Virus record (IMG/VR): IMGVR_UViG_3300005732_000056
Coordinates: 1 to 37,342 of that record
Direction: 5' to 3' (one strand)
DNA: 37,342 nucleotides
From: a virus
Of the stretch, positions 7,894 through 18,180 are shown piece after piece (the first letter of the stretch is position 1; each line of letters starts with the position of its first letter). The notes beneath the pieces are model-generated. The model was not told the DNA's origin and did no database searches. It saw only the letters and a list, made by a program, of their open reading frames with translations. The position numbers were made by a program, and so were the translations under genes.

Positions 7894-8784
7894 ATGGCTA
7901 ACAATACAAAAGCCGGACTTTTTGCCGGTGGTGCTGGTTGGGGTGTTTGGACGGTAGCCGTCCATTCAGTTTTAAGAATACCTTATCAAACTTTTATTGG
8001 GACAAGTACGGGCGCGCTTATTGCGTTGTTTTTGGCCCTTGCACGCATAGATTCGCGTTTCTACGAAATTTTGATCTATGAGTATCTAAATATCACGAAT
8101 TATCAAATGTATGGCTTCCTTTCGCCGTACAAGAAGAACGGCAAAATTAACCGGGCCAAGTTGGGGGCCGCGTTAATTCGAATGATATGGCAAAATAAAA
8201 ACCATGCTTACGACATTGGCAAAGAATTAGAACGCCGAATATTAAAGCACTTCGACAAAAAATTGTTTGACACGTTACGCGCCCGAAATATAGACGTTAT
8301 TGTAACGGTTAATTGTGTTTCGCTAAAGAACGAACCAACGCGTTACGTTAGCATATTGAAAAAAAGCATGACTTTCGAAAGGTTTGTTAAAGCGGTCGTT
8401 GCCAGTGCTTCAATTCCTTATTTCGCTAAACCCGTTATTTGGAACAACCGTTCGCACACCGACGGCGGCGTGTTTGACACCGCGCCAACCGGTTTAATAT
8501 CAAAATACAAATTCCCGGACATTTGGTTAATGCACTCTTTACAGTCTGAAGAATCTTCACACCAAGAAGTAGACGGATTTTTAAAACTTGCCGGCGCTTT
8601 GTTTAATGGTATGCGCGCGGAAATAAAACGCGACGACCTGAAGGGCGTAAAAGACGCACAAGTGTATTATTCGCCAAGCTTTTCTTGGTCCGCTGCGGAT
8701 TTTAATAAGGCAAGAATGAAGGAAGCGTTCAACCGTGGAATATCTGACGCCGAAAACAATAATATTGTAATGGTTCAAAAATGA
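7894..8784 (+). CDS. Patatin-like phospholipase
   Basis: The 296-residue protein shows all patatin landmarks. These are a glycine-rich oxyanion-hole region (FAGGAGWGVW, residues 10-19), the nucleophile elbow GTSTG with Ser38, the segment VVASASIPYFAKPV (about 168-181), and the catalytic Asp190 in the DGG motif (HTDGGVFD). Patatins are Ser-Asp dyad acyl hydrolases that cleave membrane phospholipids. No signal peptide is present, so it acts in the cytoplasm or needs release through a holin. It is translationally coupled (ATGA) to a PAS-domain gene and lies two genes before the endolysin, so a role in membrane destruction at lysis is the simplest inference. A role in entry or anti-defence is also possible. 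Confidence 0.85.
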   Translation: MANNTKAGLFAGGAGWGVWTVAVHSVLRIPYQTFIGTSTGALIALFLALARIDSRFYEILIYEYLNITNYQMYGFLSPYKKNGKINRAKLGAALIRMIWQNKNHAYDIGKELERRILKHFDKKLFDTLRARNIDVIVTVNCVSLKNEPTRYVSILKKSMTFERFVKAVVASASIPYFAKPVIWNNRSHTDGGVFDTAPTGLISKYKFPDIWLMHSLQSEESSHQEVDGFLKLAGALFNGMRAEIKRDDLKGVKDAQVYYSPSFSWSAADFNKARMKEAFNRGISDAENNNIVMVQK

Positions 8785-9230
8785 CTGATAGCCAAAGAAT
8801 TCTTGATAAATTTTTAGACGCCGTTTTAAGTATTCAAGACCCGGTTAACCCGAATTATGAAATGTTAATTGCGCGAAAGTTGCGTCGATACCCTTTTGCA
8901 AGTGTTGTTTATACTGAATTTCGCGACGGTGAAGTGTTTATATTGAAGGCCGACGATAGAATTGAAGGTATAACCGGGTATAAACCCGAAGAACTAGCTG
9001 GAAAGCCATTAACTTTTATAATGTTTAAACCATTTGAACCGAAGACGTTGGCGAAGACAATGGACGAACTAGTAAAATACGGCGCCAGCTTAAAGACTAA
9101 TTTAAACAAGAAGAAAGACGGAACTTCGGTTGAAACATTTGGCGTTCTTGAAGATATGGGTAAAAACCTATATCGTGAAGTTGTAGTTGACGCGTCTAAA
9201 ATTATAGGCCATGAAGTTAGAAAACCTTAA
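8781..9230 (+). CDS. Stand-alone PAS-domain protein
   Basis: The 149-residue product is essentially one PAS fold. A strand with VVYTEFRDGEVFILKADDRIEGITGY leads into YKPEELAGKPLTFIMF (the usual G-y-x-p-e-E-l-x-G-x-x-l), then a helix with DELVKYGASL, and a KKDGTSVETFGVLEDM strand pair. PAS domains sense ligands, redox state or light, or mediate dimerisation, normally joined to kinases or cyclases. Here there is no output domain. Its start overlaps the patatin stop (ATGA) and its end overlaps the following TM gene, so it is made with the lipase and may bind or regulate it. The cofactor cannot be told from sequence. Confidence 0.72.
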   Translation: MTDSQRILDKFLDAVLSIQDPVNPNYEMLIARKLRRYPFASVVYTEFRDGEVFILKADDRIEGITGYKPEELAGKPLTFIMFKPFEPKTLAKTMDELVKYGASLKTNLNKKKDGTSVETFGVLEDMGKNLYREVVVDASKIIGHEVRKP

Positions 9231-9519: not shown

Positions 9520-10337
9520 GTTTAATTAGTAAAATTAATACGAAGGGAATTCGAACCTTCTTCTTGCGCGCCGTTGCGGCTATAGTTGCGTTAATTCACG
9601 TAGTTGGTATGTGTTTACATTATTTTCTTGGTCAAGCAATAGACCACGTTCTGTTTCAAACGAACGCGCAGTTGTTTTATTGGATCGTAATAGGTACCGT
9701 TGTTGACGGTGTGGCGCGTGTTCCGGAAATACGATCTTTTGTCGGCGCCACTGTAGGGCGTTTAAGAGGTAAAAAGAAGCCGGGCGACGCAATTACCCAA
9801 GAAGAAGAAGAAACGGCTTCAGATGAAGCGAAACACCCCGAAGAAGTACTATATAAGACCGCGAAACAATATATTGGTGTTGAAGAAGTAGCTGGCGCGA
9901 TACACAACAAGACAATTATGTCTTGGATCGATAAATTGAACTTCAAAGTTAAATTTGGTATTGATAGCGACGAAATTCCTTGGTGTGGAACTATGGCTTG
10001 CGGTTGTGCTGACGAAGCCGGACTTGAACACCCCGGAAGCGCAAACGCAAAACAATGGCAAACGGTTGGCGAAAGGTTTGAACCGGGAAAAACTGAAGTT
10101 CCGGCTGGTATTTACGGAATAGTTGCCGTTTCGCACCGAAAATATATTTCGCAAAGTCTTCTTGACGGTCCGGGACACGTTGAAATTGTAGACCCGACTT
10201 CTTTTAAGCCTGACGGAACATATAAAACAATTGCGGGCAACCTAAACCGCGACAAGTCAAAAGGCAAAGTTGGCGTTTCAATAAGGAACACAAACGACCC
10301 TATGTTCATAGGCTTCTTTTTGTTGGGGCCTTCTTAG
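9516..10337 (+). CDS. Membrane-anchored endolysin, holin-like N-terminus fused to a Cys/His peptidase domain
   Basis: The product has 273 residues. Two hydrophobic segments occupy about residues 14-39 (FFLRAVAAIVALIHVVGM) and 51-68 (AQLFYWIVIGTVVDGVAR), followed by a charged acidic linker (about 85-110). The C-terminal domain begins TAKQYIGVEEVAG and carries PWCGTMACGCADEAGL with catalytic Cys157, then AKQWQTVGE, and His221 in GPGHVEIV. This is the layout of TIGR02594/NlpC-P60-like phage amidases or peptidases that cut peptidoglycan. Fusing holin-like helices to the lysin would deliver it to the membrane without a separate holin. It is the last gene of the four-gene cassette, and a promoter for the next unit follows. 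Confidence 0.78.
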   Translation: MSLISKINTKGIRTFFLRAVAAIVALIHVVGMCLHYFLGQAIDHVLFQTNAQLFYWIVIGTVVDGVARVPEIRSFVGATVGRLRGKKKPGDAITQEEEETASDEAKHPEEVLYKTAKQYIGVEEVAGAIHNKTIMSWIDKLNFKVKFGIDSDEIPWCGTMACGCADEAGLEHPGSANAKQWQTVGERFEPGKTEVPAGIYGIVAVSHRKYISQSLLDGPGHVEIVDPTSFKPDGTYKTIAGNLNRDKSKGKVGVSIRNTNDPMFIGFFLLGPS

Positions 10338-10366
10338 ATAAAATAGATATTCTTGAAATAAAAAAG

Positions 10367-10398
10367 TTTGTTTTGTAACTTTAAGCGCTATATATTTG
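10367..10398 (+). promoter_or_regulatory. Promoter of the recombination module
   Basis: TTTG (10367-10370), a 20-bp spacer and TATATTTG (10391-10398), followed by CGCAA, fit the Bacteroidota -33/-7 promoter. The start of transcription would be near 10402, about 15 nt before the ATG at 10417. Confidence 0.75.
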
Positions 10399-10738: not shown

Positions 10739-11164
10739 ATGAAGCACAAAGTTAAAACAATTGCGCAAATTCGCCAAGGTGTGAAAAATGCGTCTTTCTT
10801 AGACAAGCGAATCGGAATCGATTCTTGCGGAACATGGTTAATATTTCCCGATTCACCGGTCGATATTTACATTGAATTCAGCCCTGAAGATTTTAAAGAA
10901 ACCATTGAAGAACACGGTTTAAACCTAATGGAAGAAGACGTTGTTCGCGAAATAGAGGGTTCGCCGGTCGATATGGACCAAAGACCCGTTGAGGTTCCGG
11001 TTCTTGAAGCAATGGAAAACGACTATTGTTTAACCGAAGCAATAGAACACGGTATGCCCTTTGAAATTGGCACGTATTACTTCGATTCTAAGTTCGACCG
11101 CGCCGTTCGTTGGTTTTGTTCAATACTTCCTTCACCACTAAAAAAAGGGGGGTGTTATGTCTAA
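10739..11164 (+). CDS. Hypothetical protein of recombination module
   Basis: The 141-residue product is acidic and soluble. Segments include a basic N-terminus (MKHKVKTIAQIRQG), a strand region (IDSCGTWLIFPDSPVDIYIEF) and an acidic helical part (FKETIEEHGLNLMEED). I recognise no family. It follows a terminator and overlaps the next gene by 8 bp, so it is co-translated with the recombination genes and probably serves with them. Confidence 0.55.
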   Translation: MKHKVKTIAQIRQGVKNASFLDKRIGIDSCGTWLIFPDSPVDIYIEFSPEDFKETIEEHGLNLMEEDVVREIEGSPVDMDQRPVEVPVLEAMENDYCLTEAIEHGMPFEIGTYYFDSKFDRAVRWFCSILPSPLKKGGCYV

Positions 11165-11681
11165 TAAATCACATTATAGAAACGTTTACAAAAGCGACCA
11201 CTTGTCGGCCGCTGATATTGAAGACTTTATTGAACAAAAGCGTTCTTTGGTGTTTACAATAAAAGAAGTAATTCAACACGAACTTATTGCTGGCGACCGA
11301 AATTCGGGTGTTATTGTTACCGGGAAAAGAATAAGCGCCAACATAGCGCACTTTGTCGAAAATATAAAGCCTATGGTTTTAAATGCGACAAACGGAAAGA
11401 TTGTTCGGTCTTTAGCTGGCGGTTCTCCTTTTGTTCAAGATTGGAAAAATATTAAGGTTGAAGTTTATGTTGATCCAAACGTTAAAATGAAGGGCGAAGT
11501 GGTCGGTGGTTTGCGTATTAGAAAACAAGCACCGGCGCCGCCTACAAAAGAAGAAATTGAAACACAAGTAAAAGAAGCGACCAGTGTTTCACAGTTAACG
11601 AATATTCGGTCGTATATTCAAAAGTATAACTTAACCCTATTAGCCAGCGCACGCGCAAACGAAATAAAAAATGGACTTTAG
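11157..11681 (+). CDS. Conserved phage recombination-module protein
   Basis: The product has 174 residues. The central segment KPMVLNATNGKIVRSL...PFVQDWKNIKVEVYVDPNVK...GLRIRKQ matches a pattern I know from small proteins next to exonuclease and annealing genes in phages of Bacteroidota and Firmicutes. The strand-rich core (VYVDPNVKMKGEVVGGLRI) could be OB-like. The C-terminal 45 residues form a helical tail (TKEEIETQVKEATSVSQL). It overlaps both neighbours, including the YqaJ-like exonuclease. Single-strand DNA handling is a reasonable inference but not demonstrated. Confidence 0.6.
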   Translation: MSNKSHYRNVYKSDHLSAADIEDFIEQKRSLVFTIKEVIQHELIAGDRNSGVIVTGKRISANIAHFVENIKPMVLNATNGKIVRSLAGGSPFVQDWKNIKVEVYVDPNVKMKGEVVGGLRIRKQAPAPPTKEEIETQVKEATSVSQLTNIRSYIQKYNLTLLASARANEIKNGL

Positions 11682-12436: not shown

Positions 12437-13759
12437 ATGACAAACAACAAAAACAACAATGAAGAAGCCGCTGAAGTAGTGGTTGTTTCTTCCAACGAAA
12501 TTTCAAAACAAATTGAAGAAGCTGGTTTGGTTCCGGCAAGCGATAGCGCCGTAAAAATTACGAATTCCTTCACACAATTCTTTCAAGACATAAACCAATA
12601 TAAAGAACGCGTTCAAGCTTTGGTTGTTACCGACGAAACACAAGTCGACAAAATGAAAGAAGCGCGTGAAGCGCGTTTGAAGCTTGTTAAAATACGAACG
12701 GGCGCGGACGGTGTTCGAAAAGACTTAAAAGCCGAATCAAACCGTTACAATAAAGCCGTTCAGGGTGTTTACAATATACTTGAATATGTTGTAAAACCTA
12801 TGGAAGAACATTTGTTAAAACAAGAACAATATATTGTTTTGAAGCGTCAACAAGAACAAGAAGCGCTTCGTATTTCGCGACAAAAAGAGTGCGAACCATA
12901 CCGGGAATTTATACCGTTAGGTGTTGACCTTGGTAAAATGGTAGACACTGAATATCAAAAACTATTCAACGGGGCGAAGCTTCAGTTCGACCAGCGCGAA
13001 GAACTAAAAAGGAAAGAAGAAGCTGAAAGGGTTGAAGCCCAAAAGAAAGAAGAAGCCCGCATTGAAGCCGAACGCGTGGCGAAAGAACGACTTGAAAAAC
13101 AACGAAGTGTTCGCTACGACGAAATAGCGCCGTTTGTGCCGGTGTATATTGAAAAGCCCGGTGTTTTTATTGATCTTCCTGAAGAAGAATATTTAATCGA
13201 ATTGTGTAAAATAAAAGAAGCGGCAAAAAAAGAAGAAGAAGAACGTATTGAAGCCGCGCGTGTAAAAAAAGAACGCGAAGAACTTATTGCCGCACGTCGC
13301 GAACAATTGTCGCCGTATATGTTTTACATAGATGATTTTGACGGTGTTTTAAACCTTCCAAATGAATCTTATGACATAGAGTTCAAAAAGATTGTGGAAC
13401 GTGCAGAAAAGGCAAAGAAGGACGCCGAAGAAGCCCGTTTAAAACGCGAAGAAGAAGCCCGAATTGCAAAAGCAAAGGCTGAAGAAGCTGAAAAGAAAGC
13501 GAAAGCCGAAAAGGCTGAAAAAGACCGAATTGCCGCCGAACTAAAAAGGCGCGAAGAAGCTGAATCGAAAGCAAAAGCTGAAGAAGAAGCGCGGATTGAA
13601 GCCGAATTAAACAAGGGTGACGCCGAAAAGGTTGAAGACTTAGTTGACGATTTAAACGGATTGAAAACTAAATATAAATTTAAGTCTTCCAAGAACCGGA
13701 AAATGTACGAAGAACTTTCGTCTTTGATCAATGAATTAATAACACACGTTAAAAGGTAG
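12437..13759 (+). CDS. DUF1351-like coiled-coil protein with three internal repeats
   Basis: The product has 440 residues. Residues about 60-135 resemble the DUF1351 family found beside phage recombinases (LVVTDETQVDKMKEAREARL, VRKDLKAESNRYNKA). The rest is long charged coiled coil interrupted by three similar modules at about 153-190, 226-268 and 286-330. Each module has a pF/pY turn, a short strand, L-P-x-E-x-Y and a helix (compare IDLPEEEYLIELCKIK with LNLPNESYDIEFKKIV). The last 35 residues form another small helical unit. It starts 10 bp after the exonuclease gene, suggesting a structural or accessory partner in recombination. Confidence 0.6.
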   Translation: MTNNKNNNEEAAEVVVVSSNEISKQIEEAGLVPASDSAVKITNSFTQFFQDINQYKERVQALVVTDETQVDKMKEAREARLKLVKIRTGADGVRKDLKAESNRYNKAVQGVYNILEYVVKPMEEHLLKQEQYIVLKRQQEQEALRISRQKECEPYREFIPLGVDLGKMVDTEYQKLFNGAKLQFDQREELKRKEEAERVEAQKKEEARIEAERVAKERLEKQRSVRYDEIAPFVPVYIEKPGVFIDLPEEEYLIELCKIKEAAKKEEEERIEAARVKKEREELIAARREQLSPYMFYIDDFDGVLNLPNESYDIEFKKIVERAEKAKKDAEEARLKREEEARIAKAKAEEAEKKAKAEKAEKDRIAAELKRREEAESKAKAEEEARIEAELNKGDAEKVEDLVDDLNGLKTKYKFKSSKNRKMYEELSSLINELITHVKR

Positions 13760-14096: not shown

Positions 14097-14306
14097 ATGG
14101 ACAAAAAACACGAAGTATTGAAATTTCTTAAAACCGTCGAATTCGCTACACTTAAAGAAATAGCTGAAGCGGTGCCGTTTTACTATTACCACAATACACA
14201 CAAATACGTCGGCGAAATACTTTCTAGGTTGGTTAAGCGCGGCTTGGTGTTTAGGATCAAAAAGGGCGTTTTTAAGATAAACCCAAACCAAAAAATACTA
14301 TTCTAA
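14097..14306 (+). CDS. Small winged-helix DNA-binding protein
   Basis: The 69-residue product has a winged-helix pattern over its whole length: HEVLKFLKTV, LKEIAEAVPFYYYH, then KYVGEILSRLVKRGLVFRIKKGVFKI as recognition helix and wing. It starts 12 bp after a terminator and overlaps the nuclease gene start by 1 bp. It may be a local repressor for the nuclease and replication genes. Family and role are inferred from fold pattern only. Confidence 0.65.
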   Translation: MDKKHEVLKFLKTVEFATLKEIAEAVPFYYYHNTHKYVGEILSRLVKRGLVFRIKKGVFKINPNQKILF

Positions 14307-14647
14307 TGAAACAAGAAGAACACATTCTTCAAAAGTCTTTCGTTCGTTGGTTTGACTACCAATATCCAAACCGACAACACCAGCTTTTCGCCGTTCCAAA
14401 TGGCGGCCAAAGAAACAAAAGTGTTGCCGCAAAACTGAAATATGAAGGCGTTCGCCGTGGCGTGTCTGACTTAATACTTATACACAATAGTAAAACGTAC
14501 TTTATAGAGGTAAAAACGCCCAAAGGCACGCAAAGCGACAACCAAAAAGAATTTGAACAATGTGTTGTAAAGCAAGGCTTTTTGTATATTATAATTAAAA
14601 CTTTTGAAGAATTTGAAAGCTTTATTGTTTCGATTCTTGGAAGATAA
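14306..14647 (+). CDS. VRR-NUC domain nuclease
   Basis: The product has 113 residues, a full stand-alone VRR-NUC domain. FAVPNGGQRNK, GVRRGVSDLILI (Asp55), YFIEVKTPKGTQS (Glu68, Lys70) and DNQKEFEQ (Gln80) are the family's PD-(D/E)XK motifs in order. Phage members act as Holliday-junction resolvases or structure-specific nucleases, here suiting resolution of recombination or replication branches. The start codon overlaps the stop of the winged-helix gene. Confidence 0.85.
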   Translation: MKQEEHILQKSFVRWFDYQYPNRQHQLFAVPNGGQRNKSVAAKLKYEGVRRGVSDLILIHNSKTYFIEVKTPKGTQSDNQKEFEQCVVKQGFLYIIIKTFEEFESFIVSILGR

Positions 14648-14700: not shown

Positions 14701-14708
14701 TATATTTG
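14701..14708 (+). promoter_or_regulatory. Promoter of the replication module (-7 box)
   Basis: TATATTTG followed by CGCAAGCGAAACGAA repeats the core and the first transcribed bases of the minus-operon promoter. The -33 element is poor (TGTT at 14675-14678, spacing 22), which may mean a need for an activator. Transcription would start near 14712. Confidence 0.6.
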
Positions 14709-14710
14709 CG

Positions 14711-14806
14711 CAAGCGAAACGAATAAAAAAAGCAAGTAATAAAAACATTGGCCCCAATTGGTTGTTGTGGTTCGTTTCGCTACTTCTACCGACAACCGCC
14801 GGGGCC
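14711..14806 (+). promoter_or_regulatory. Structured leader RNA upstream of the replication genes
   Basis: GGCCCC (14750-14755) pairs with GGGGCC (14801-14806), and inside it GGTTGTTG (14760-14767) pairs with CGACAACC (14790-14797). The apical loop holds TTCGTTTCGCT (14771-14781), the exact complement of AGCGAAACGAA (14713-14723) at the very 5' end of the predicted transcript. The leader could therefore form a pseudoknot or switch between two folds. TTCTT follows the hairpin, so attenuation is possible. The first coding start is at 14822. Confidence 0.55.
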
Positions 14807-14821
14807 TTCTTATAAATAATA

Positions 14822-15493
14822 ATGGCAAAAGACAAAAAATCGTTCCTTTTATATAGTGATCTAATTCACACGGTTCAAAAATTACCGAACGAAACCGCTG
14901 GCGAATTATTCAAACACATTCTTCAGTATGTGAACGACCAAGACCCGGAAACCGATAATATTTTGGTTGAAATAGCATTTGAGCCAATTAAACAAGCTTT
15001 AAAACGTGACTTAGAAAAATACGAAAACAAGCGTTTGCAAAATTCGGAGAACGCAAAAAAGCGTTGGAACGCAAAAAAAAGCGAACCCATTAAAAAAGAT
15101 GCGACAGAAAGCGAACTTATGCGACCGCATACGAACGCACAAAACACAAAGCGAAGTGATACGAAACATACCGATAATGTTATTGATAATGATAATGTTA
15201 TTGATAATGATAATGTTATTGATCATTCTTCGAATGAGGGTTTAAAAACATACCGCGCCTTTAAGCATTTAAAAATAACAGTTGAAGAAGTTGAAAAACT
15301 AAAAGAAAACTATTCTATTGAACAAATTGACGAAACGTTGGACAATATCGAAAACTATAAAAAAAATAATAGTTACGTTTCTTTATTTGTTACCGCAAGA
15401 AGTTGGCTGAAGAAAGACTTCGGACAAAAAAGTAAACCTTCAGTTCTTCAGCGTGGACACGAAGCAATTGTAAAACCCAAAGTATTAGAATAA
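14822..15493 (+). CDS. DUF6291-type replication protein (putative initiator)
   Basis: The product has 223 residues. The first 85 match DUF6291: [37 protein letters not shown], then [17 protein letters not shown] and a basic [10 protein letters not shown] patch. This family heads replication modules of many phages and is taken to be an initiator or organiser. The middle is a polar linker encoded by 18-bp direct repeats ([13 protein letters not shown]). The C-terminal 80 residues ([36 protein letters not shown]) form helices ending in [10 protein letters not shown], common in replisome-organiser proteins. It precedes a DnaC-like loader, as lambda O precedes P. Confidence 0.68.
15173..15223 (+). 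repeat. 18-bp direct repeats within the initiator gene, candidate origin iterons
   Basis: GATAATGTTATTGATAAT occurs at 15173-15190 and 15191-15208, with a third copy of 15 bp at 15209-15223. The unit is AT-only apart from three G. Iterons inside the initiator gene are the lambda O arrangement. As a coding repeat they give only a low-complexity D/N/V/I linker, so selection at the DNA level is plausible. Confidence 0.6.
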
Positions 15494-16302
15494 TGAAAGA
15501 AACTAATGAAACAACGCAATTGAACGAACTGGTTGGTTCGGCTTTGCAAATGTACGGCCATTTACCAGCCGAAGAATTGAAGCGGTTCGGATATAAAAAG
15601 CCCGAAAACAACGTCGACGAAATGGCCGAAAATACTGCGGACTATTGGAACAAAATAAACAATATGCGGGTTCAAAAGACCTTAACCCGTGGCGGTCGCA
15701 ATGTTTTAATTAAGCAAACGCTTAATCGATTAGCACAACGCGACAATATAACCGAATTCATTCCTGACGAAAAGCAAATTGTTCTTATGAAGCATTTGAA
15801 CGAATACTTTATGGGAATATCAAAAGTCTTAACACCTGAAAAGGGTTTAATATTAATGGGTGACACTGGCGTCGGCAAAACGACAATATTAACGGCCTTT
15901 TTAAGTGTTCCTTATTGTAGTTTTTCGGACTTTGATTTAGTTGACTTCCGGGCCGCAAAATTCCGAAGTTGTATTTCAGTCATTCAAGACTATAACCGAA
16001 TAAAAAGAAGTAACGAAAACACCGATTGGTTGTCTGAAAACCTATTCGGCGACATATATTTTTCGGACCTAGGAAGCGAACCAACGCACGACTTCGCAAG
16101 AAAAGACGAAGAATCGTTAATGTCGAAGGTTATCGAACAAAGGTATTTACACAAAAGCGGGCGAACCTTCTTTTGTACAAACCTAAATCAAGACGAAATT
16201 GCCCGGAAGTATGGAAAAAGAATAAATTCACGTTTGGCGCAAATGTGTCACTTCATTGATTTAAACGAATCGGGTATTATTAAAGACTATAGAACGAAGT
16301 AA
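15493..16302 (+). CDS. DnaC-like AAA+ ATPase, putative helicase loader
   Basis: The product has 269 residues. It has Walker A GDTGVGKTT (residues 123-131), a Walker B strand DIYFSDLGSE (187-196), a sensor-1 FFCTNLNQDE and an Arg-finger region KRINSRLAQM, in the order found in DnaC/IstB proteins. The N-terminal 110 residues are a helical partner domain not recognised. Such ATPases place the replicative helicase on DNA at the origin, and since no helicase gene is found the host DnaB is the likely client. The start overlaps the previous stop by 1 bp (TAATG). Confidence 0.8.
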   Translation: MKETNETTQLNELVGSALQMYGHLPAEELKRFGYKKPENNVDEMAENTADYWNKINNMRVQKTLTRGGRNVLIKQTLNRLAQRDNITEFIPDEKQIVLMKHLNEYFMGISKVLTPEKGLILMGDTGVGKTTILTAFLSVPYCSFSDFDLVDFRAAKFRSCISVIQDYNRIKRSNENTDWLSENLFGDIYFSDLGSEPTHDFARKDEESLMSKVIEQRYLHKSGRTFFCTNLNQDEIARKYGKRINSRLAQMCHFIDLNESGIIKDYRTK

Positions 16303-16680
16303 ATGACATCAACAAATAAAATATACCAAGCCGTCGCCGAAGTTGTTGGCGTGGACGCTGAAGAACTAAAAAACAACACTTGCGGAAAAAGTGCGCGCCA
16401 CTGCGTTCGTTATTTCTTAGTTAAAAAGACGATATTCAACCGGGCCGAAATTGCCCGGCAAATAGGCGTTAAACCTAACGCAATAAAAACTTCGGTTTTA
16501 AAGTGGTCCGAATTGGTACAAACCGACGCAACGATCCGGGCGACACACAACGCGGTCGCTCAAACTTTGAAAGGTGTTATTGTAACCGATTTTTCTGAAG
16601 ATAAAAGCCGACGCTTCTTTACACAAAAAGACCTTAATGAACACCTTCGGGCGAAATTCAATATTGAAATTATTACATAA
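16303..16680 (+). CDS. DnaA domain IV-like DNA-binding protein
   Basis: The product has 125 residues. Residues about 5-90 follow the C-terminal DNA-binding domain of DnaA: IYQAVAEVVGVDAEEL, then SARHCVRYFLVKKTI (position of the basic helix), FNRAEIARQIGVKPNAIKTSVLKW (HTH, with PNAIKTSV in place of the DHSTV signature), and DATIRATHNAVAQTL as the last helix. There is no AAA+ domain. It starts 0 bp after the DnaC-like ATPase gene, so the two could together act like a split DnaA. The C-terminal 35 residues are unknown. A simple transcription regulator is the alternative. Confidence 0.6.
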   Translation: MTSTNKIYQAVAEVVGVDAEELKNNTCGKSARHCVRYFLVKKTIFNRAEIARQIGVKPNAIKTSVLKWSELVQTDATIRATHNAVAQTLKGVIVTDFSEDKSRRFFTQKDLNEHLRAKFNIEIIT

Positions 16681-16684
16681 CCGC

Positions 16685-16714
16685 TTGTTTATATCAAATA
16701 ACGACCTATCTTTG
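16685..16714 (+). promoter_or_regulatory. Promoter, first copy of a duplicated 35-bp element
   Basis: TTG (16685-16687), 19 bp, TATCTTTG (16707-16714). The 35 bases from 16684 match those from 18126 with one mismatch. The next gene's ATG at 16719 is 5 bp beyond the box, so its mRNA would be almost leaderless. Confidence 0.75.
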
Positions 16715-16718
16715 TGTT

Positions 16719-17252
16719 ATGAATAACGCAGAAAACAACACTAAAAGCTTAATCGATCAACTTAAAATTGAAACGGTTGAATTAAAAAACGCATATATCG
16801 CGCGCACGAAGGAATTCACAAACGCGGAATACAATAGAATTGTAGAACGAAAAAATTGGAGTGCGAAAGAATGGTGTGAACTTTTGGGTTTAGAACCATT
16901 AAAAAACGCAAACGGCAAATATTCATTTCCTAAAAACTTTTTTAATACTTCAGATTCAAGAAAACACTTTAAACTAGAAGCTGAAGCTTTTCGTGTTGCA
17001 AGTAAAACGCAAGCGCAACACCTAGAAGTCGCTATTTCTGACGCTGAAAAACATTTCGCCGGATCAATTGAAAAGCTAGCGCTTAGAGTAATAAAAAAGG
17101 GGCTTAATTTAGGTTCGTTTAAAATGCAATCTACTTATTTAGACCCCAATATGTCGACCGTGATAACTGACGGTAAAATAACCGTTCGCGCATATACGAT
17201 AATTGCCGGCGGTCCTATTCAAAAGCCGCACTATAGATATTTAGTTAAATAA
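16719..17252 (+). CDS. Hypothetical protein, probably translated from a leaderless mRNA
   Basis: The product has 177 residues. The N-terminal half is helical (SLIDQLKIETVELKNAYIART, EYNRIVERKNWSAKEWCELLGL). The C-terminal part is strand-rich, with a KMQSTYLDPNMSTVITDGKI segment and an ending ...YRYLVK. No family is recognised. The ATG lies at the predicted transcription start of a strong promoter, and no alternative ATG with a normal leader occurs within the first 100 residues. It could act in early takeover, which is inferred only from the promoter type. Confidence 0.6.
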   Translation: MNNAENNTKSLIDQLKIETVELKNAYIARTKEFTNAEYNRIVERKNWSAKEWCELLGLEPLKNANGKYSFPKNFFNTSDSRKHFKLEAEAFRVASKTQAQHLEVAISDAEKHFAGSIEKLALRVIKKGLNLGSFKMQSTYLDPNMSTVITDGKITVRAYTIIAGGPIQKPHYRYLVK

Positions 17253-17586: not shown

Positions 17587-17773
17587 CAACAAACCGCCGA
17601 CAAGGCTTAAAAACACAATTAAAGCCATTAAAGCCATTAAAGCCACTGAAGGGCAAAGCGGAACGATAGAGTGTCCACAATGCAAAGGTTCTATTCTATG
17701 GCGCAAGAATGGCGACAACGGCCATATTTGGGGCCGGTGCAACTTGAAGGGGTGTTTAGATTGGAATGAATAA
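17579..17773 (+). CDS. Small zinc-ribbon-like protein
   Basis: The product has 64 residues. Two Cys pairs, CPQC and CNLKGC, separated by 17 residues with aromatic and Gly positions (LWRKNG, HIWGRC), indicate a small zinc ribbon. The N-terminus is encoded by 9-bp repeats giving IKAIKAIKAT. Such proteins bind nucleic acid or partner proteins. It is the last gene before a 400-bp noncoding stretch with a tRNA. Confidence 0.6.
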   Translation: MIDNKPPTRLKNTIKAIKAIKATEGQSGTIECPQCKGSILWRKNGDNGHIWGRCNLKGCLDWNE

Positions 17774-18112: not shown

Positions 18113-18126
18113 ATTCAAAAAAATTC

Positions 18127-18156
18127 TTGTTTATATCAAATAACAACCTATCTTTG
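18127..18156 (+). promoter_or_regulatory. Promoter, second copy of the duplicated 35-bp element
   Basis: TTG (18127-18129), 19 bp, TATCTTTG (18149-18156), identical in 34 of 35 bases to the copy at 16684. The leader to the ATG at 18181 is about 20 nt and includes AAAAAGGAATAATAATT. Confidence 0.8.
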
Positions 18157-18180
18157 TGTTGTTAAAAAGGAATAATAATT

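Follow-up and report, generated by a model that had tools for sequence, protein, structure and literature searches.

The window analysed here, a 37,342-base IMG/VR virus record, carries terminase, portal and head genes together with a compact run of three genes that the first-pass annotation had read as a replication-initiation module (Table 1). The gene families and gene order found here support that reading of the region as a phage DNA-replication-initiation operon. All three ORFs were re-found, and their gapless packing was borne out: the first two share a TAATG overlap at 15491-15495, and the ATG at 16303 abuts the stop codon of the second. Upstream of the operon, TATATTTG fits TAnnTTTG, which we take to be the -7 element of Bacteroidota promoters, and the evidence for a promoter at this site is weak because the window holds 37 motifs of this type where 45 are expected; Bacteroidota-type TTTG-TAnnTTTG promoters likewise number 4 versus about 3 expected. 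The hairpin in the leader may be a terminator, an attenuator or a DNA structure, and the promoter-like stretch behind the third gene probably marks the end of the operon. A VRR-NUC nuclease gene (14306-14647) lies immediately upstream of the module. Elsewhere in the window, an unannotated stretch at 17618-17645 holds a perfect 9-bp tandem repeat (ATTAAAGCC, 3.1 copies), and the small phage protein encoded at 8781-9230 weakly matches a PAS domain (E 0.0008, under the cut-off). Searches based on the terminase and on the protein encoded at 12437-13759 matched four terminase loci and returned no sister phage comparable in this region.

Table 1. Features of the proposed replication-initiation operon and its flanks (window coordinates).
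Feature	Position	Strand	Basis
TATATTTG, candidate operon promoter	14701..14708	+	match to TAnnTTTG -7 element; weak
G+C-rich hairpin in DUF6291 leader	14750..14806	+	-26.2 kcal/mol, z -3.5, 0/200 shuffles equally stable
DUF6291 protein, 223 aa, proposed origin-binding initiator (replisome organizer)	14822..15493	+	PF19808; arrays; downstream Walker A
DUF6291-domain coding segment (aa 7-84), helical in model	14840..15073	+	Pfam match and AlphaFold2 model
10-bp-phased array, core [AGC]CGA in 8/10 successive 10-bp registers; proposed initiator-binding iterons	15081..15176	+	
Perfect 18-bp tandem repeat GATAATGTTATTGATAAT x2.8, G+C 18%; proposed DNA-unwinding element	15173..15223	+	Tandem Repeats Finder
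DnaC-like AAA+ helicase loader, 269 aa	15493..16302	+	PHROG and PDB matches, AAA+ motifs
125-aa HTH-like protein; possible diverged free DnaA domain IV or transcription regulator	16303..16680	+	
Promoter-like 50-nt stretch, second copy 18126-18175 (86% identity)	16684..16733	+	TATCTTTG at 16707 and 18149

The first protein had been assigned to DUF6291, and this identity is solid (PF19808, E 8.3e-25, 87.2 bits versus a curated cut-off of 27.2). It also matches a primosomal protein family (phrog_6451, E 2.9e-5), and its match to the PHROG category "replisome organizer" reaches only E 0.012. In the AlphaFold2 model, residues 91-139 form a low-confidence or disordered linker, approximately the same stretch of the gene that holds the repeat arrays described below. 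A fold search with the model gave zero solved structures under E 0.001 and no known DNA-binding fold among the listed matches; the top match (Z 4.3) was a UBA domain aligned to the C-terminal part, and the best viral matches were other DUF6291 or unnamed phage proteins. The family is matched in 119 named phage records and had not previously been assigned a function, and our search of the open literature found no paper naming it. In Leeuwenhoekiella phage Arctus_1 (L195:3001-3474), the domain occurs as a fusion with an HNH endonuclease, and a different putative initiator and a DnaC-like loader are encoded downstream of it.

Within the DUF6291 gene of the window, CGA occurs eight times in a single 10-bp phase between 15082 and 15172, a regularity with p=0.001 against 1000 codon shuffles that preserve the protein, each scored by its maximum over all 3-mers. 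The array abuts the 18-bp repeat, the A+T-richness of which is matched by only 0.3% of 51-mers in the window, and both elements lie in the DNA that codes for the linker. The gene therefore contains a repeat array beside an A+T-rich region, which is the arrangement sought for an initiator of the lambda O or gp38 type.

The second element sought for such a module, a helicase or loader gene directly 3' of the initiator gene, is also present. The middle protein matches DnaC-like ATPases, as had been proposed (phrog_50, E 7.7e-15; phrog_3277, E 1.3e-10; also phrog_26922), and its best PDB match is a helicase loader (E 0.0069); its Pfam AAA and IstB matches all fall under the cut-off. The residues that we take to be Walker A (G123-K129), Walker B (D192), sensor-1 (N230) and the arginines R243/R247 are invariant in five aligned loaders, those of the window, Freya_1, phi13:2, LS06-2018-MD05 and Carboxylicivirga. 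L002 and L003 were considered as sources of loader relatives and rejected, the match being confined to a short stretch of ORFs that read as tail-type genes. Across the family, the ORF adjoining DUF6291 on its downstream side has a Walker A motif at 78 of 82 loci and lacks one at four (L079, L083-L085), a count that excludes L053, L071 and L081, which run into contig ends, and L090, which has no qualifying ORF after DUF6291. Seventy-five of the 78 fall into one cluster, six sampled members of which match primase-helicase or DnaB types in PHROG, and the other three (window, L088, phi13:2) are DnaC-like loaders. When ten downstream genes were sampled, nine matched helicase, primase-helicase or loader PHROGs and that of L079 matched none. 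Named phages display the same variety: a primase/helicase follows DUF6291 in elemoA, hattifnatt and tooticki, DnaB follows it in Aeromonas phiA005 and Vibrio 1.074.O, and in Vibrio BT-1011 DUF6291 itself comes after the annotated loader.

The third gene is the most difficult to place. It had been described as encoding a small, ATPase-free protein that aligns along DnaA domain IV; the absence of an ATPase was confirmed, and the alignment was borne out weakly, in that Bac_DnaA_C is its best Pfam match (profile positions 2-55 of 69) and matches the window at this gene only, but the match (E 0.027) scores 15.0 bits versus a cut-off of 31.5. Against a DnaA-IV profile of 32 non-redundant sequences that we built, the protein scores 8.8 bits, a value reached by 5 of 2000 shuffles and by none of 1149 other ORFs of 90-180 aa; with an earlier, longer profile the window ORF at 11157-11681 ranked above it (10.3 versus 6.7 bits). 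The hhalign probability is 3.4, and two shuffles out of 300, as well as a spurious ORF of the window, score higher; an AlphaFold2 model made from the single sequence, without relatives, has a pLDDT of 48, too low to inform on the fold. Domain IV of DnaA reads DnaA boxes with a basic RKR-type loop and a DH[ST]TV motif. In an alignment with eight clear free DnaA-IV proteins, which have most of these features with variations, the 125-aa protein lacks both and reads NTCGKS---ARH and KPNAIKTSV at the two positions. A sequence search of the PDB gave one unrelated match (E 0.4), and no relatives appeared in viral contigs, genome contigs, named phages or 395 Bacteroidia genomes; weak matches in 20 of the Bacteroidia genomes were read as chance.

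One alternative bears on this third gene only and is compatible with an origin in the DUF6291 gene. The 125-aa protein might be a transcription regulator resembling GafY/HdaB and the N-terminal part of GafA, with the promoter-like repeats at 16684 and 18126 as possible targets. Its gene is the last before the first of these repeats, its best NCBIfam match is a sigma factor (E 0.0027), and the N terminus of GafA, which binds a promoter, is described as resembling the DnaA DNA-binding domain. However, the sigma match lies far under its cut-off (17.4 versus 350 bits) and the gene is located in a replication operon, so that we see a regulator as possible but somewhat unlikely.

The interpretation of the DUF6291 gene itself depends on whether its repeats mean anything beyond the protein they encode. 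A tandem array is present in 65 of 75 distinct DUF6291 genes. Among 33 representatives, which are mutually related so that their p-values are not independent, 28 have one versus 37 of 357 control ORFs, and the excess extends to arrays of 10/20 bp (9/33 versus 4/357) and of 6/12/18 bp (25/33 versus 16/357). A 10-bp period beyond what the protein demands (codon shuffles, p<=0.05) was detected in 20 of the 33 and missed in 13, versus 4 of 200 controls (the first 200 of the 357, also used for the RCGA test below), and the best 10-bp match fell at nt 220-330 of the gene in 28/33 representatives versus 29/200 controls. The most prominent periods among the representatives are 10 (in 17), 12 (in 18) and then 20 (in 8), with 11 in none, and the absence of an 11-bp period when the protein is held fixed counts against an alpha-helix artefact. 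In-phase RCGA occurs in 13 of the 33 representatives, one of 12 named phages and none of the 200 controls, counts that are descriptive since the motif was picked after the arrays had been seen. A general test for 4-mer phasing gave p<=0.05 for no more than six representatives, the autocorrelation and RCGA tests being stronger, and the units themselves vary (for example, AACGAACGTT, ATAGCAAACG, GCATGCGAAC and AACGAAGCAA). The 12 named-phage genes were hand-picked for host variety from 60 listed of the 119 named phage records, Arctus_1 being left out because of its HNH fusion. All 12, including those of Vibrio, Aeromonas, Shewanella and Pseudoalteromonas phages, have an array in the linker; the 10-bp test was passed by four and missed by eight, and the 12-bp test was passed by eight.

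These repeats could in principle be nothing other than low-complexity linker codons that are prone to slippage and play no part in an origin. The 6/12/18-bp arrays do encode linkers rich in DN, DS and SV, for which an origin by slippage is possible, and the linker is disordered in the model. Yet 10 bp is not a multiple of three, the signal survives shuffles that keep the protein, the 6n-bp arrays are A+T-rich (mean G+C 0.25 versus 0.35 for the gene), their position is constant, and the gene that follows DUF6291 usually encodes a helicase-type ATPase. We therefore regard slippage alone as an improbable account of the arrays.

Free DnaA-IV genes are frequent companions of DUF6291. Among 80 viral DUF6291 records, Bac_DnaA_C is matched in 45 and exceeds the cut-off in 32, a count that omits four named phages, all of which match. 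With our own profile, which was built from many of these sequences and so favours their detection, a free DnaA-IV ORF was found near 62 of 82 DUF6291 loci, many of them near-copies: 58 lie upstream, at no more than 151 nt in 47 cases, and four downstream. In L086 and L087 the order is DUF6291, primase-helicase, DnaA-IV, and in Arctus_1 the gene for a DnaC-like loader overlaps by 4 nt the next gene, which encodes a DnaA-IV protein (9937-10398) of 64 bits. Free DnaA-IV can thus occupy the slot after the loader, and the gene order favours a diverged free DnaA-IV as the identity of the 125-aa protein. Taken with the scores, and resting mostly on gene order, homology of the protein to DnaA-IV seems to us about an even call. 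The layout is not unique to the window, as DnaA-type HTH genes are already annotated in Cellulophaga phage phi13:2, Polaribacter phage Freya_1 and Flavobacterium phage tooticki6-1; our literature search found no paper on the DnaA-type helix-turn-helix of Flavobacterium phages in replication initiation. Binding to host DnaA boxes had also been envisaged for the small protein. The window has 98 DnaA-box-like sites versus 125 expected, and DUF6291 genes and their leaders show no enrichment either; recruitment of host DnaA via such boxes was accordingly dropped as the main model.

The model of the first-pass annotation, in which the third gene would encode a genuine free DnaA domain IV that serves origin recognition and recruits or blocks host DnaA, with the AAA+ protein as the other half of a split DnaA, can draw on the best Pfam match, on the free DnaA-IV genes beside DUF6291 in many phages and on the orders seen in Arctus_1 and L086/L087, but we consider it very improbable given the sub-threshold scores, the missing basic loop and DH[ST]TV motif, the unenriched boxes, the match of the ATPase to DnaC-like loader families and the absence of any Bac_DnaA_C match from the records of 10 of the 12 named phages with arrays. 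DUF6291 is the better candidate for binding the origin, since its own gene holds the likely origin.

From the computed arrays, their position and excess over protein-preserving controls, the gene order and the gene families, we infer that the window probably encodes an initiation module of the lambda O-P or SPP1 gp38-gp39 type, with DUF6291 as the initiator, the origin in its own gene, an AAA+ loader next and the 125-aa protein as an accessory. In phage lambda, the loader P is encoded next to O. The DUF6291 protein would bind the helically phased 10-bp array within its own gene and open the adjoining A+T-rich 18-bp repeat, and the opened site would be handed to the DnaC-like loader encoded next, which would place the DnaB helicase. 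DUF6291 is the natural candidate for the initiator because the array lies in its gene and because arrays persist in phages with no DnaA-IV match, and the location of the candidate origin in DNA for a disordered linker suggests how the protein tolerates it. The accessory role of the 125-aa protein may be that of a diverged free domain IV of DnaA, bending or marking DNA, or that of a transcription regulator, in either case without classical DnaA boxes. Helical phasing of iterons has been described as general at iteron plasmids, which are reported to require DnaA yet to manage without its AAA+ domain; such help could thus come from a free domain IV. A bolder extension, which we offer as speculation on the unlikely side, is that DUF6291 founds an initiator family common to phages of Bacteroidota and gammaproteobacteria, combining its own phased-iteron origin in the gene with an exchangeable engine (DnaC-like loader, DnaB or primase-helicase), and that many members add a free domain IV as a minimal DnaA, replacing the host-DnaA help on which iteron plasmids rely. 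If DUF6291 is an origin-binding initiator with its origin in the gene, a candidate initiator and a candidate origin of mapped position become available for 119 named phage records, and the helicase-type gene that follows DUF6291 is also accounted for. The question then raised is why so many of these phages keep the DnaA DNA-binding domain without its ATPase.

The proposed module can be compared with several known systems. The flavophage free DnaA-IV proteins (phi13:2 gp011, Freya_1 gp53, tooticki6-1 gp26 and Arctus_1 9937-10398) are, like the 125-aa protein, small, ATPase-free and encoded near a loader or DUF6291, but they score 30-64 bits to Bac_DnaA_C, whereas the window protein scores 15.0 and is without the box-reading motifs. 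Caulobacter HdaB/GafY (hdaB having since been renamed gafY) and Rhodobacter GafA are described as having a domain like the DnaA DNA-binding domain without the DnaA ATPase (PMC9632790, PMC6363796); their likeness to the 125-aa protein is drawn from these descriptions, and they differ in being reported activators of gene transfer agents. For the initiator itself, the available accounts place the iterons and A+T-rich region of ori-lambda inside gene O (PMC5043065), as proposed for the window, although the lambda iterons are 19-bp inverted repeats and the candidate iterons of the window are 10-bp phased direct repeats, nearer to iteron plasmids. The organizers of the lactococcal P335 phages TP901-1 and Tuc2009 are reported to bind repeats in their own genes, and r1t pairs organizer ORF11 with a DnaC-like loader, ORF12 (PMC8965321); both traits recur in the proposed module, but no Pfam match ties DUF6291 to these organizers, the PHROG "replisome organizer" match being the one at E 0.012. 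In the Bacillus subtilis phage SPP1 gp38/gp39/gp40 system, gp38 is described as binding direct repeats within gene 38 near an A+T-rich DNA-unwinding element, with oriL in gene 38 and the gene for the loader gp39 directly after it (PMC6316719), an arrangement proposed for the window as well. The window departs from SPP1 in that DUF6291 forms a separate Pfam family, in that its 269-aa loader is of the DnaC-like AAA+ type whereas gp39 has 126 aa, and in that the gene after the loader encodes the 125-aa protein rather than a helicase. Together, SPP1, the P335 phages TP901-1, Tuc2009 and r1t, and lambda, as described in these reports, provide the precedent for an initiator that binds repeats and opens an adjacent A+T-rich stretch for a loader or helicase (PMC6316719, PMC8965321, PMC5043065), the role in which we would cast DUF6291.
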